Source: an uncultured Turicimonas sp.
GTDB lineage: Bacteria > Pseudomonadota > Gammaproteobacteria > Burkholderiales > Burkholderiaceae_F
Length of the DNA stretch: 53,960 nucleotides
Direction of reading: 5' to 3'
Assembly (NCBI GenBank): GCA_947854175.1
Contig: CANTYJ010000055.1
Coordinates: 1 to 53,960 of the forward strand
Part shown: positions 26,663-32,131 of the stretch, in pieces
Position numbering within the stretch: the first letter of the stretch is position 1
How the letters are laid out: the number at the start of each line of letters is the position of its first letter
Notes under the pieces: generated by a model
Seen by the model: the letters and a program-made list of their open reading frames with translations, nothing else
Databases searched by the model: none
Told to the model about the DNA's origin: nothing
Translations under genes and position numbers: made by a program

Positions 26663-27652
26663 TTAAGAATTGGCGATGATTTCATCAACAACTTTTCTTT
26701 CTGTTTCAAGAGCTTCAACATTTTTCTTGATGAATTCTTTTTGGAATTCTGTGAGCTCAAGGCTTTTGACAACTTCGTAATCACCGTTATTGCAGGTAAC
26801 CGGCATACCAAAACAAAGACCTTCAGGAATACCATATTCACCGTTTGATGGAACAGCCATTGTCTGCCATTTGTCTCCTGAACCCAAACACCAGTCACGG
26901 ATGTGGTCGATGGCAGCGTTAGCTGCTGAAGCGGCTGAAGAGTGCCCTCTGGCTTCAATAATAGCGCTTCCTCTTGTGGCAACTGTTGGTACGAAATAAT
27001 CTAAATACCATTGTTGATCGAAGAGGGTATCAGCCTGTTTTCCACAGATTAATGTATTGGTGACATCAGGGAACATGGTGTTACCATGGTTACCCCAAAC
27101 ACAGAATTTTTCAATATCAGTAACTCTGCAGTCAGTTTTTTGAGCCAATTGAGTCAGTGAGCGGTTGTGGTCAAGTCTCATCATGGCTGTGAAATTTTTC
27201 GGATTAATATCCGGAGCGCACTTTCTGGCGATATAGGCATTAGTGTTAGCCGGGTTACCGACAACAAGAACTTTGACGTTTCTGTCAGCGACTTCATTAA
27301 TAGCACGGCCCTGTTGAATGAAAATTTGTGCATTTGCATTCAGAAGGTCTGAACGGTTCATGTCTTTTGTACGTGGACGGGCACCGACCAAAAGTGCGAT
27401 ATTGGCATCGCGGAATGCTTCAGTTAAGTCAGGGGTTGAATAGACACTGTTTAGAAGAGGAAAAGCGCAGTCGTCGAGTTCCATCTTGACGCCTTTGGCA
27501 GCTTTCATGGAACTTTCCGCGTTTCTTTCAAGCATGACCAAATCAATCGGTTGATCTGCACCAAGCATATCACCGGCTCCGATTCTGAAAAGAAGAGAGT
27601 AGCCAATCTGACCTGCGGCTCCGGTAACAACGACTTTAACTGGTTTTTTCAT
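26663..27652 (-). CDS. mdh: Malate dehydrogenase
   Basis: A 329-residue NAD-dependent malate dehydrogenase of the type usual in betaproteobacteria (homologous to cytosolic eukaryotic MDH). The nucleotide loop is [17 protein letters not shown] (residues 8-24), substrate-binding arginines are in [15 protein letters not shown] and MRLDHNRS, and the catalytic His is in [12 protein letters not shown]. The ATG at 27652 is chosen because the family begins there and AGGAG lies 10 nt upstream; the frame runs open another 47 codons without meaning. It works in the TCA cycle with the 2-oxoglutarate dehydrogenase encoded nearby, or in reverse toward fumarate under anaerobic conditions. It diverges from the flavoprotein reductase, so the FNR dyad between them could affect both. 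Confidence 0.97.
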
Positions 27653-27809
27653 CTTTCTAATTCTCCTGAGTTTTTCACTAAACAAACCTAAATAACCATA
27701 AATGATAATTCGGTTTTGATGAAGAATCAAAAATATAAATTTCGAACGATGAAGTCCACAATTTATGTTTAACCATAATGGATTAAATTGCATAAAAAAT
27801 CACTATTTC

Positions 27810-27823
27810 TTGATATTGATCAA
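27810..27823. promoter_or_regulatory. Perfect FNR/ANR/CRP-type dyad
   Basis: TTGATATTGATCAA matches the FNR consensus TTGAT-N4-ATCAA without a mismatch. It lies 67 bp before the reductase start and about 158 bp before the divergent mdh start, inside a 237-bp promoter gap. Regulation by an oxygen-sensing FNR homologue is the natural reading. Confidence 0.8.
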
Positions 27824-27838
27824 CCTACTTGAGTAGGT
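27823..27838. promoter_or_regulatory. Perfect palindrome next to the FNR dyad, candidate response-regulator site
   Basis: ACCTACTTGAGTAGGT has 7-bp perfect arms and a 2-nt centre and touches the end of the FNR dyad. If the -10 is the TAAATA-like stretch around 27859-27864, the palindrome centre would be near -40, a usual activator position. The FixJ/TtrR-like regulator encoded downstream is the obvious candidate to bind it; this is inference. Confidence 0.55.
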
Positions 27839-27889
27839 AAGCCTTTAACCTTTTCACATAAATAAAACATTTTCCTAGGGAGTTCAATA

Positions 27890-29686
27890 ATGAAATTCAA
27901 AAAGATTTCTTTAGCAATTGCGTTTGCTTCTGTTAGTACTTTGGCCATTGGGTATGTTCCTGGAACATATGAAGCCAGTTATCCCGGCATTAGTGGAAAG
28001 GTTCCTGTAAAAGTAACTTTTTCTAAAGACAAAATTGAAAAAATCGAAGTTGGAGCAAACAAAGAAACTGTTGGCATCGGTCAGAATGCCATTAAATCAA
28101 TTCCAATGGAAGTTTTAAAGAATCAGTCTTTGGGTGTGGACAATGTTTCTGGTGCAACATTGACCTCTAAAGCTTTATTAGCAGGTATTGAAGATTGCGC
28201 TAAACAAGCCAAAGCTGATATGACTTTACTCAAGAAAAAAGCAAAAGAGCAAAAAATGATGAATAAGGTTGAAAAATTAGATACAGACCTTGTCATCGTT
28301 GGTGGAGGCGCAGCTGGAATGATTGCTGCAATCAATGCAGCAGAACAAGGTATCAAGGTTACTTTAGTTGAAAAAATGAATTTCCTCGGAGGCGCATCTG
28401 CTATTTGTGGAGGTTCTGTCGTGACGGAAGGCTCACAATTACAAAAGGACCTCGGTGTTAAAGATGACTCTCCCGCTAAGTTGGCTTATGACTTATTGGA
28501 CAACGGACATCAAAAAAATGATATGAACGCATTGTTGTTCTATGTTAATAATGTCGGAAAAAGTATCGACTGGATCATGTCTAAAGGGGTTAAATTCGAG
28601 AATGACTTCAGTTTCAGAGCAGAATGGAGAACTCCTCGCATGGTGCCTTTAAAAGGTGGTTGTCCTGCCTTTGCTCAAACTTTAAGAGAGTTGGTAGCAA
28701 AAGATGGCGTCAATGTACTTCTTTCAACCAAAGCTGAGAATATAACCATGAAAGATGCTAAAGTGGTTGGAATCACAGCCGTCAACTCTCAGGGTGTGAA
28801 ATATGAAATTAGTGCGAAGTCTGTTCTTTTGGCTACCGGCGGATACGGCTATAACAAAGACATGCTCAAAGGTATGTTAAAAGATGCTCTTTATTATGGT
28901 CCTGTATCATCAACGGGGGACGGACATAAGATGGCTGAAAAAGTAGGTGCGGCAATGCAACTAATGGATTATGGCAAGCTCTATCCTCAAGGCATTGAAG
29001 TGGCTCCAGGAATTGCTAAATCAACTTTACAAGGAAATATCGGTGCTTATAACCAGGCAGGAATTTTGATCGATAAAAAAGGTAATCGAGTTATCAATGA
29101 AAAAGGTTCAGGTAAAGACATGGTTGCTATACAACTTAAACAGCCTAAATCAACACTTTACTTAGCTTTAGATCAAAAGAGTTTTGATGGTTTTAAAGAT
29201 TACGCACGTAAGAATGGAATTTCTTCTGTTGATATAGATAAATGGCTGATGAATGATGGAAAAGTACCTCCGTACTTTGTTAAAGGCGATACAATCGAAG
29301 AGGCCGCAGCTAAGTTAGGTATTGACGGACAAAATTTAAGAAAAACTGTAGATCGTTATAACTCCTTTGTTGTTAATAAAGATGATAAAGATTTTCACAG
29401 ACAGCTGAAATTTATGACTAAGACCATTGATACGAAAGGGCCTTTCTATATCATTGAACAAAAGCCAAGATTCGCTACAACACTTGGTGGTGTTAAAGTC
29501 ACAACAAAAATGGAGGTGATTGATCAGAATGGTAAAACGATTCCTAATCTTTACGCCGCCGGAGAATTAGCTAACTCTGTGCATGGTGATGATTCAGCCC
29601 CGGGTGCAAACGTTGCGTGGTGTATCACTACCGGAAAAACTGTATCTGATGAAATCGCTTTAAAACTTAAAAAGAATAGGCGTTAA
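27890..29686 (+). CDS. Exported FMN/FAD flavoprotein reductase, electron acceptor unknown
   Basis: A 598-residue exported flavoprotein of the fumarate/urocanate-reductase-like family. Signal peptide at residues 1-21; FMN_bind domain at about 24-105 with the ApbE flavinylation motif DNVSGAT (84-90, Thr90 modified in relatives); FAD-binding core from 132 (VIVGGGAAG, 135-143) to the end. There is no CxxCH haem motif, so electrons must come from a separate cytochrome or quinol dehydrogenase not in this window. Residues that bind fumarate in Shewanella Fcc3 appear changed, by eye: the catalytic Arg of the E..xRD loop is Lys409, the active-site His before TMGG is Thr530, and the Arg in HGANRLGG is missing (HGDDSAPGA, 565-573). 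The substrate is thus probably not fumarate. Good Shine-Dalgarno (AGGGAG). Upstream: FNR dyad and palindrome. Downstream: its likely sensor and regulator. Confidence 0.9.
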   Translation: MKFKKISLAIAFASVSTLAIGYVPGTYEASYPGISGKVPVKVTFSKDKIEKIEVGANKETVGIGQNAIKSIPMEVLKNQSLGVDNVSGATLTSKALLAGIEDCAKQAKADMTLLKKKAKEQKMMNKVEKLDTDLVIVGGGAAGMIAAINAAEQGIKVTLVEKMNFLGGASAICGGSVVTEGSQLQKDLGVKDDSPAKLAYDLLDNGHQKNDMNALLFYVNNVGKSIDWIMSKGVKFENDFSFRAEWRTPRMVPLKGGCPAFAQTLRELVAKDGVNVLLSTKAENITMKDAKVVGITAVNSQGVKYEISAKSVLLATGGYGYNKDMLKGMLKDALYYGPVSSTGDGHKMAEKVGAAMQLMDYGKLYPQGIEVAPGIAKSTLQGNIGAYNQAGILIDKKGNRVINEKGSGKDMVAIQLKQPKSTLYLALDQKSFDGFKDYARKNGISSVDIDKWLMNDGKVPPYFVKGDTIEEAAAKLGIDGQNLRKTVDRYNSFVVNKDDKDFHRQLKFMTKTIDTKGPFYIIEQKPRFATTLGGVKVTTKMEVIDQNGKTIPNLYAAGELANSVHGDDSAPGANVAWCITTGKTVSDEIALKLKKNRR

Positions 29687-29719
29687 ACCGAATTTTTAAA
29701 CTAATATGCCTTGGATAAG

Positions 29720-29754
29720 ATACCTTCTGTTGGGAAACCGTCAGAAGGTATTTT
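29720..29754 (+). other. Hairpin that covers the sensor-kinase ribosome site
   Basis: Perfect 10-bp arms ATACCTTCTG (29720-29729) and CAGAAGGTAT (29742-29751) with a 12-nt loop, then TTTT. The 3' arm contains AGAAGG, the only Shine-Dalgarno for the ATG at 29757. The element could act as a partial terminator after the reductase and also hide the ribosome site of the kinase gene. Confidence 0.7.
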
Positions 29755-29756
29755 CC

Positions 29757-31529
29757 ATGAGCGTTAAACAAATATTCCTTCGATTTAATTTGGGATTTTT
29801 GATCCTACTTTTGTCATCAATTTCATCAGCAAATGAAAAAATTCCTCTTAAGCTGGGAATTATGAGCTTTACCCAAGGTTCTTCATTTACTACTCACGTC
29901 GCAGAAGAAGATCGAATATTGTCTGAAATTCCGCAAATTCTCCAGTCTCATCTTCCCGATTACCATATTGAAACTCGCTTTCTTCGGATGAATGAGTTAA
30001 TCGATGCGATACGAGATAAAAAAGTAGATATATTTTTAGGAAGTAGCGGTTTGTATTGGCAAATGAAAAAGTACGGAGTCAGAGACATAGCGACTCTTAT
30101 TTCTGCCAGTGCTCCTAATCCTAATAAAGGAGTTGCAGGAATAATTTTTGCCAGAAAAGATGATAAATCAATCAATTCTCTCAAAGATGCAAAAGGAAAA
30201 ATTGCTTCAACCGGTTTGGAAAATATGTTTTTGGCTAGTCAATTGTCATTTGCTGAAATAGCTAAAAATGGATTTGATGTCGATCATTTTTTCACTCATG
30301 TTTTTAGACACGACTTACCTGTGAAAAATACAATAAATATGGTAAAAGACGGAAAGGCAGATGTAGGAATACTACGTTCATGTGTTTTAGAGTCCGAGTT
30401 GCCGGACTGGCAAAAGTATTTCAAAGTAATTGGTGAGAAAAAAAGTCCTGATTTTAGTTGCGCTAGAAGTACTGATTTATATCCCAACTGGACAATTGCT
30501 GCCACGGCAGGTGCAAAACCCGAAGTTATTAAGAAAATCTCTTTAGCTCTACTTTCACAACCTCCCTTGGGAATAAATAAATTGTCGTGGAGTCTTGCAA
30601 CAGATTTGGACAAAGTCGACAACGTATCAAAACTTCTTAAAACCGGTGCATATGGGCTTCTGAAAGAGTGGACTTTTAAGAGGATATGGGATGAATATAG
30701 AACAATCTTGATGATTATCGTCATTTTAATTGGCGCTTTTTTATTTCATGTTTATCGGGTTGAGAGGTTAGTGACTAAGCGGACTCAAGAGTTATCGGAT
30801 GAAGTCAATTCCAGGAAAAAGATAGAAATAGAAATGAGAAAGGTAGAAGAGAGGTTGTGTGCCTTGCACAAACTTAGTGTGGTGAGTCAATTGTCTACCT
30901 TATTCGCTCATGAACTAAAACAACCTTTAGCCGTTATTCAATATTTAACCGATGCAATGAAACTGCTTCTAGTGAAAGATGAACCAGATAAAGAAAAGTT
31001 GCTTGTTTGTCGAGAAAAAATAGAAAGTCAAGTTCACAAAATAGTTGCAGTAATCGATCAGGTAAGAAGTTATGCCAAATCTAAGCAAGATAGAACAGAG
31101 AAGATTGTTTTAGATGAAATGCTTAAAAAGCTTATTGAAAGAAATAGTCTTTCAGCTTCTTTTCATCTGAATATATCAGGAAAGAATTTTGTAATTACAG
31201 GAAATAATCTCGAAATAGAACTCCTTTTAGAGAACCTCTTTAAAAATGCAATTCAAGCTTCACCGGATTCGGAGTTCATAAACGTTTCTCTTAGTCAGGA
31301 AGAAAAGGAACATAACATAATCCTTGCAGTTTCTAACAAAGGTAAAAAAATATCAGAGTCAGAATTGTCCGAAATAATCACGCCCTTGAAAACTTCAAGA
31401 AAAGGAGGCTTGGGACTCGGTGTTACGATAATCCAGTCTATTGCCAAGGCTCATGGTGCACAACTTTCATTTAAACCTAATGAAGAGGGAGGATTATCTA
31501 TCATTATCAAATTTAAGGAAAGAAAATGA
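29757..31529 (+). CDS. TtrS-like sensor histidine kinase with PhnD-type periplasmic domain
   Basis: A 590-residue inner-membrane sensor kinase. The N-terminal signal/anchor segment is residues 9-22. A periplasmic phosphonate-binding-protein-like domain (about 28-300, LKLGIMSF, DIFLGSSGLYW, KDGKADVGILRSCV) resembles the sensor half of tetrathionate kinase TtrS. One transmembrane helix (317-331) leads to a dimerisation domain with phosphoacceptor His385 in FAHELKQPL, then an ATPase domain with LLENLFKNAIQ (Asn497) and GGLGLGVTII (550-559). The ATG at 29757 is preferred over 29706, because the earlier start would translate the hairpin and spoil the signal segment. It overlaps the regulator gene by 4 nt. 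It probably senses the acceptor of the reductase or a related compound. Visibly AT-rich compared with the flanking housekeeping genes. Confidence 0.88.
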   Translation: MSVKQIFLRFNLGFLILLLSSISSANEKIPLKLGIMSFTQGSSFTTHVAEEDRILSEIPQILQSHLPDYHIETRFLRMNELIDAIRDKKVDIFLGSSGLYWQMKKYGVRDIATLISASAPNPNKGVAGIIFARKDDKSINSLKDAKGKIASTGLENMFLASQLSFAEIAKNGFDVDHFFTHVFRHDLPVKNTINMVKDGKADVGILRSCVLESELPDWQKYFKVIGEKKSPDFSCARSTDLYPNWTIAATAGAKPEVIKKISLALLSQPPLGINKLSWSLATDLDKVDNVSKLLKTGAYGLLKEWTFKRIWDEYRTILMIIVILIGAFLFHVYRVERLVTKRTQELSDEVNSRKKIEIEMRKVEERLCALHKLSVVSQLSTLFAHELKQPLAVIQYLTDAMKLLLVKDEPDKEKLLVCREKIESQVHKIVAVIDQVRSYAKSKQDRTEKIVLDEMLKKLIERNSLSASFHLNISGKNFVITGNNLEIELLLENLFKNAIQASPDSEFINVSLSQEEKEHNIILAVSNKGKKISESELSEIITPLKTSRKGGLGLGVTIIQSIAKAHGAQLSFKPNEEGGLSIIIKFKERK

Positions 31530-32131
31530 ACGACAAAGAACAATTTGTAATTCGTATTATTGATGATGAAGAACCAATTCTTTTTTCTTTGAATCTGTTA
31601 TTGGAAATTGACGGTTGGAAAACTGAATGTTATTCGAATCCTCTGGATTTTTTAAAAAATGTTGCCCCCTCAGTTCCAGGTTGTGTTCTAAGTGATATAA
31701 AAATGCCAAGAATGTCCGGTCTTGATTTGTTTGAAACCATGAAAGAAAGAGAAATCAATTTGCCCGTTATTTTTATTTCAGGTCATGGCGACATCGAAAT
31801 GGCTGTGGATGCAATGAAAGAAGGAGCTTCTGATTTTCTAATCAAACCGGTTAAGGAAGCAAAATTATTTTCTGCTATTAATAAGGCGGTAAACCGTTAT
31901 CGCAAAAGCGGTAACGAAATTGAGTTTAAAAGAAGAATAAAGACATTGAGTTCAAGAGAATTAGCTGTTCTAAGATTAATGTTGGACGGTGTAGACACTA
32001 AAAATATCAGTAGAAGACTTAGTATTGGCGAGAGAACTGTCCAGGGACACAGGTGGAGGATCTACCAAAAACTAGAGTTAAATAGTGTGGAACAAGTTAT
32101 AGAAATTATCAAACCGGAGTGGTTGCCTTAA
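31526..32131 (+). CDS. FixJ/TtrR-like response regulator
   Basis: A 201-residue two-domain response regulator. The receiver domain holds acidic pocket residues DDEE (13-16), phosphoacceptor Asp57 in LSDIKMP, the signalling Ser in FISGHGD and the conserved Lys in IKPV. The LuxR-type helix-turn-helix spans about residues 137-195 (LSSRELAVLRLMLDGVDTKNI, GERTVQGHRWRIYQKL). This is the layout of FixJ, TtrR and NarL-like regulators, which bind inverted repeats. ATGA overlap with the kinase gene shows coupled translation. Its likely target is the palindrome at 27823-27838 before the reductase gene. Confidence 0.92.
   Translation: MNDKEQFVIRIIDDEEPILFSLNLLLEIDGWKTECYSNPLDFLKNVAPSVPGCVLSDIKMPRMSGLDLFETMKEREINLPVIFISGHGDIEMAVDAMKEGASDFLIKPVKEAKLFSAINKAVNRYRKSGNEIEFKRRIKTLSSRELAVLRLMLDGVDTKNISRRLSIGERTVQGHRWRIYQKLELNSVEQVIEIIKPEWLP

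Follow-up and report, generated by a model that had tools for sequence, protein, structure and literature searches.

An FNR site abutting an inverted repeat at fixed spacing before flavin reductase and two-component genes of an uncultured Turicimonas and its relatives

We analyzed a stretch of DNA of 53,960 nucleotides from an uncultured Turicimonas sp. (hereafter the window), in which genes for a flavin reductase, a sensor kinase and a response regulator follow one another, with mdh as the divergent neighbor (Table 1). The regulator carries the PF00072 and PF00196 domains of a FixJ-type (GerE) response regulator, and its best PDB matches were 1yio and FixJ 5xso. In the window's own genome (G000, 2.45 Mb), FixJ-type two-component systems next to flavin reductases are very numerous: 24 FixJ-type regulators lie in the stretches fetched from it, and 20 of these have a reductase-type gene within 5 kb. 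A motif scan for the FNR protein, limited to the fetched genome stretches, found no FNR gene.

Table 1. Features of the locus, in coordinates of the window.
Feature	Position	Strand	Remarks
mdh, divergent neighbor	26663..27652	-	outside the composite promoter as conserved elsewhere
FNR/CRP-family site TTGATATTGATCAA	27810..27823	+	center 27816.5; predicted near -42; motif match and G050 ortholog
Dyad ACCTACT-TG-AGTAGGT	27823..27838	+	center 27830.5, 14 bp from FNR center; proposed operator of the FixJ-type regulator; predicted near -28
Weak -10 position	27847..27852	+	columns 38-43; window AACCTT a poor match; alternative TTTAAC at 27844-27849
Predicted transcription start	27858..27859	+	columns 49-50; predicted from the alignment
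Shine-Dalgarno-like AGGGAG	27877..27882	+	sequence
Flavin reductase, FMN_bind + FAD_binding_2	27890..29686	+	flavocytochrome c-like; below TIGR01813 cut-off
Sensor kinase, phosphonate-type periplasmic binding domain	29706..31529	+	nearest NCBIfam model TtrS, far below cut-off
FixJ/TtrR-like response regulator, receiver + GerE HTH	31526..32131	+	recognition helix ERTVQGHR

The first-pass annotation of this DNA had described a perfect FNR site sharing its last base with a perfect 16-bp palindrome. The FNR site showed 0 mismatches to TTGATN4ATCAA and was the sole perfect match in the window, where 7 matches were found with up to one mismatch allowed (4.27 expected). Its last base, 27823, is indeed the first base of the second element, ACCTACTTGAGTAGGT. 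The description of that element as a perfect palindrome was wrong, because 2 of its 16 bases differ from its own reverse complement; it is an inverted repeat with 7-bp arms (ACCTACT and AGTAGGT) around TG, the 7-2-7 form of NarL/NarP-type operators, in which inverted heptamers stand two bases apart. The exact dyad core, CCTACTTGAGTAGG, is found at a single place in the genome. By a rough estimate, a gap of ~240 bp could contain a lone dyad of such quality by chance in a few cases out of a hundred. We rated the window dyad above chance because it is conserved in an ortholog and recurs with constant spacing ahead of paralogous genes.

Among 67 family genomes, one close ortholog of the window reductase was found (79% identical), in G050. 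This genome belongs to another genus, has an unrelated upstream gene, and is the sole one in which the ortholog comes with the whole reductase-kinase-regulator cluster, in the gene order of the window (kinase 56% and regulator 62–63% identical). The search for the palindrome before the orthologous reductase gene, as the first-pass annotation had suggested, found the element kept: the G050 promoter combines TTGATTAATATCAA, the FNR site as conserved there, with CCTACTTAAGAAGG in a register identical to that of the window. No kinase or regulator adjoins the reductases of G017, G045 and G048 (58–60% identical), and none of these lies at a place matched by the composite pattern. Across 399 order-level genomes, only the window's own genome and G017 passed a reductase search at E 1e-190. 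When the 67 family genomes were searched for the composite pattern, allowing 3 mismatches at most, 7 places in 4 genomes matched: the window, the G050 ortholog, one place in G045, and four (G000, G050, and G001 twice) upstream of a Tat-type flavin reductase, which in one case is only a short remnant. At G001 C16 ~8430 (L124/L237), the composite promoter is retained before a truncated frame, apparently what is left of a Tat-type reductase. A scan of genome contigs with poor patterns returned only remote flavoproteins and short matches, and a scan of viral contigs found no relative.

Recurrence of the layout was measured in the module regions fetched from G000, G001, G050 and G051. We called a site FNR-like at no more than 1 mismatch to TTGAYN4RTCAA, required 6 of the 8 pairs as the minimum for a dyad, and defined reductase-type genes by blastp similarity to the window reductase (E up to 1e-5); duplicates and FNR-like sites inside another called ORF were discarded from the offset count. 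Results showed 84 FNR-like sites near gene starts, 29 of them before flavin-reductase-type genes. A dyad at a center offset of +14 accompanied 16 of these 29 sites and 0 of the 55 other FNR-like sites (Fisher p 1e-9), whereas the other offsets between 9 and 49 gave the 29 sites a mean of 0.225 dyads and a maximum of 2. These 16 composites, orthologs included, carry 13 distinct dyads. Dyads at offset -14 (10 of the 84 sites) look like the same sites seen from the opposite strand. We concluded that the pairing of FNR site and dyad is not due to chance; the spacing common to the paralogous modules may have been inherited through duplication.

When 1088 upstream regions were scanned with a matrix plus the dyad, 63 regions and 11 controls reached at least the 99% point of the reversed controls, and 24 composite promoters were recognized, all before reductase-type genes. 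The matrix was trained on 18 aligned sites, and thus the high scores of those 18 arise by construction. The scan recovered three composites that the ORF discard had lost (L139, L158, L127), flagged as lying inside an ORF; these flags are probably due to over-long ORF calls. Two of the 24 promoters, both in G051, have weak FNR halves. Regulators with a composite promoter numbered 6 of 24 in G000, 6 of 20 in G001, 10 of 26 in G050 and 2 of 19 in G051 (24/89 in the four genomes), and a single true ortholog of the window cluster was found. Several of the paralogous dyads are unbroken palindromes, not 7-2-7 repeats. Strong dyads with no clear FNR site were also seen before module reductases, at L148 (G050), L142 (G001) and L171 (G051).

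We also looked outside the training set with a covariance model built from 20 sites, which matched 36 places in 8 of the 67 genomes (E up to 0.05). Eleven of the 36 were inspected by eye. Four of them (G052 C86, C111 and C25; G001 C16) showed an FNR site with a dyad at 14; one in G061 had a perfect dyad at 14 and a degenerate FNR half, one (G052 C62) had a perfect dyad at a spacing of 16, and the remaining five of the 11 had no such dyad. Strong matches to the model came from two genera only in the 67 genomes, and as far as this sequence search reached the composite layout is a feature of the clade. The G061 place (L221, C38 ~80605) carries the dyad TTACGCGCGTAA before a Tat-type flavin reductase, and the adjoining regulator is 45% identical to that of the window. 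Judged by its sequence, this place makes it possible that the layout extends to a third genus.

Each promoter was then paired with its neighboring regulator (for L130, the regulator downstream of the reductase instead of the nearest one), and 5 of the 24 pairs were dropped because the DNA-binding domain (DBD) of the regulator was at least 70% identical to that of an earlier item. In the 19 non-redundant pairs, similarity of the recognition helices was correlated with similarity of the dyads (Mantel r 0.704, p 0.0002), and the correlation with dyad similarity was r 0.549 for the whole DBD and r 0.33 for the receiver domain. The same helix comparison gave -0.02 for the upstream segment, -0.23 for the FNR site, -0.02 for the FNR spacer and -0.02 for the downstream segment. 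Similarity of the downstream flank did rise weakly with that of the DBD (0.17, p 0.047) and with that of the receiver (0.28, p 0.003), which points to common ancestry. All 5 QG helices (RTVQGHR/RTIQGYR), which come from two different reductase modules, were paired with dyads of the YTACTYRAG type, RTIEAHR/RTIEVHR helices go with GGTACTTAAGTAC dyads, and LKTVESHC/LKTVEAHC helices with CACCYTAAGG dyads. Sister modules carry different dyads, for example of the GGTACTTAAGTACC type, and the window dyad fits CCTACTTRAG. The orthologous promoter keeps the dyad, and across modules the dyad covaries with the helix while the flanks do not. The regulator of the cluster therefore very probably has the window dyad as its operator, as the first-pass annotation had proposed in naming a LuxR-type regulator.

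Promoters aligned on the FNR site (18, later 19) were compared with 2000 random-shift nulls. Columns 38–43 held 3.05 bits, against a maximum of 1.80 in the nulls, with A39 in 16 of 19 promoters and T43 in 14 of 19; column 48 was a pyrimidine in all 19. Taken as the -10 element, this block would place the FNR site at -41.5/-42.5 and center the dyad near -28 (-36 to -21), so that it spans the -35 region. The class II position of FNR near -41.5 is thus a prediction from the -10 of 19 promoters, the window's own -10 being poor. Two promoters have Shine-Dalgarno sites at columns 57 and 62, which excludes the start near column 63 that a class II dyad would need. A second conserved block lies upstream of FNR (A at -12, TGAA at -9 to -6), and the window matches it poorly. 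An A-rich run and then TGAA occupy columns -16 to -6 (window ~27793-27803), roughly a helical turn before the FNR half site; blocks of 6 columns there reach 4.2 bits, and the stretch may be an alpha-CTD contact.

The grouping of kinase, FixJ-type regulator and reductase resembles the TtrSR/FNR systems of Salmonella, Shewanella baltica and Vibrio. According to the excerpted text of PMC5408782, both FNR and TtrSR are needed for Salmonella tetrathionate reductase, a precedent for joint need of FNR and a FixJ-type regulator, and induction of S. baltica PttrB, which has FixJ-like inverted repeats, falls when its near-consensus FNR site is lost. In contrast to the published ttrR box, GTGG-N4-CCAC just upstream of -35 (excerpt of PMC11293645), the window dyad abuts FNR. 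We rejected TtrSR membership, the window dyad (core CCTACTTGAGTAGG) differing from that box, and the window kinase and regulator fell far below the TtrS and TtrR equivalog cut-offs (165.5 vs 750 and 140.4 vs 290 bits). An FNR site followed within 20 bp by GTGG-N4-CCAC was matched 3 times in 369 class genomes, and the one match checked lay inside a transketolase gene. Another likeness is E. coli napF, where FNR and the 7-2-7 dyad of a GerE-type regulator, NarP/NarL, also occupy the upstream side. There the FNR site is further upstream, at -64.5, with a center spacing of 20 bp, whereas the window, with its 7-2-7 dyad, has a spacing of 14 bp and the dyad more downstream. A napF-like architecture would put the regulator site downstream of FNR at about -44.5; the window has this order, but its dyad is predicted at about -28, and the class was rejected. 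A third likeness is BvgA, a GerE-type regulator activating from the -35 region of the Bordetella fim promoters, which have several BvgA dimers and are not known to involve FNR, whereas the window has one dyad adjoining FNR. At Pfim2, Pfim3 and PfimX the BvgA site is co-centric with the -35 region and sigma region 4 still localizes (excerpt of PMC7250471), a precedent for activation from a site overlapping -35. A literature search for the dyad strings TACCTAGGTA, TACTTAAGTA and CTACTTGAGTAG returned no paper carrying them, matching only CCTAGG and general terms; among the titles listed in a search for the FNR-dyad layout, nothing was recognized as describing it.

The best reading of these data, which we consider probable, is co-dependent activation of the composite promoter by FNR and the phosphorylated cognate regulator. 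Dimers of FNR and of the FixJ-type regulator would lie side by side, 14 bp from center to center, with FNR at the class II position (~-42) and the regulator at ~-28, on the usual -35 site. The -10 is weak and a -35 hexamer is missing, and RNA polymerase would be recruited only when both proteins are bound. FNR would report anoxia, and the regulator would be phosphorylated upon binding of a ligand sensed by the adjoining kinase; the reductase would be made only without oxygen and with the signal, probably its substrate. The composite, its fixed spacing, its recurrence, the covariation of dyad and helix and the -10 position come from computation. Binding, activation over repression, the AND logic and signal identity we infer; the first-pass proposal that both anoxia and signal are required is the best reading and likewise an extrapolation. 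Several observations count against co-dependent activation: footprints centered 14 bp apart would be expected to touch, so that the two proteins may compete; the window's -10 is poor; no more than 24 of the 89 regulators have such a promoter; the window cluster has a single true ortholog; and the dyad of G052 C62 stands at a spacing of 16.

The same arrangement could instead serve repression or competition. FNR alone would activate from -42, and the regulator dimer at -28 would block RNA polymerase or displace FNR, yielding an 'anoxia and not regulator' logic; we think this unlikely. In its favor, the predicted dyad position overlaps the -35/spacer region. Phosphorylated NarL moreover represses frdA, an FNR-activated E. 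coli fumarate reductase promoter, from a near-start 7-2-7 site, presumably by excluding RNA polymerase and FNR; the excerpt of PMC4549865 gives no fixed FNR-dyad spacing there. Strict spacing to both FNR and the -10 would, however, be needless for repression, and a weak -10 without -35 suggests dependence on an activator. FixJ relatives such as TtrR also activate their reductase operons (excerpt of PMC11293645), and BvgA activates promoters where its site is co-centric with -35 (excerpt of PMC7250471). Our initial idea, a napF-like geometry, was dropped after the FNR-aligned analysis and now appears improbable: a start at ~27869 would make the dyad a class II activator site at ~-38.5, with FNR helping from ~-52.5. 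It drew on CATAAA (window) and CATTAT (G050), read by eye 18 bp downstream of the dyad, and on the NarL 7-2-7 site that activates napF from -40 to -49 (excerpt of PMC4549865), but columns 49–59 are little conserved compared with the 3.05 bits at 38–43, and the G050 Shine-Dalgarno begins at column 62, about where this model sets the transcript start.

Two further explanations were considered. The first-pass annotation had suggested that the FNR site may also act on mdh, whose start is ~165 bp away on the opposite strand. Our survey gave 63 mdh matches in 59 of 67 genomes, and 30 loci were examined, one of which (L194, at a contig end) was out of register and counts for nothing. Among the 29 readable family mdh genes, an FNR site with no more than 1 mismatch occurs within 300 bp upstream of the window gene alone, and the G050 ortholog keeps the composite with no mdh adjoining; the suggestion is unsupported, and that the FNR site serves mdh is very unlikely. 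Short dyads are common, and this one might be the operator of another factor or an inverted repeat that lies next to the FNR site by chance, to which we give hardly any credence in view of the offset-specific enrichment (16/29 vs 0/55) and the helix-dyad covariation (r 0.70).

Returning to co-dependent activation, we lean slightly towards a standard chassis used across the clade, with FNR at -42, an exchangeable dyad replacing -35, a weak -10 and a large paralogous set of reductase/two-component modules. Each copy would keep the same contact of the regulator with FNR, sigma or both, and only dyad and helix would change. One chassis with differing dyads would keep the signals of many paralogous modules insulated, and bacteria with dozens of reductases of unknown substrate must separate many look-alike two-component systems. 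If the chassis is real, it would hold a readable DNA-recognition code of FixJ-type regulators, from which the regulator driving each reductase could be predicted. With the FNR-regulator layout fixed and the operator swappable, orphan regulators would be tied to reductases from sequence, GerE-domain specificity could be learned from a natural collection of cases, and the promoters would show whether a regulator can activate from the -35 position next to a class II FNR. A doubled form of the layout was seen in G050 (L181 9095-9165, C81), where two tandem FNR-dyad composites, 43 bp apart, precede one reductase gene.
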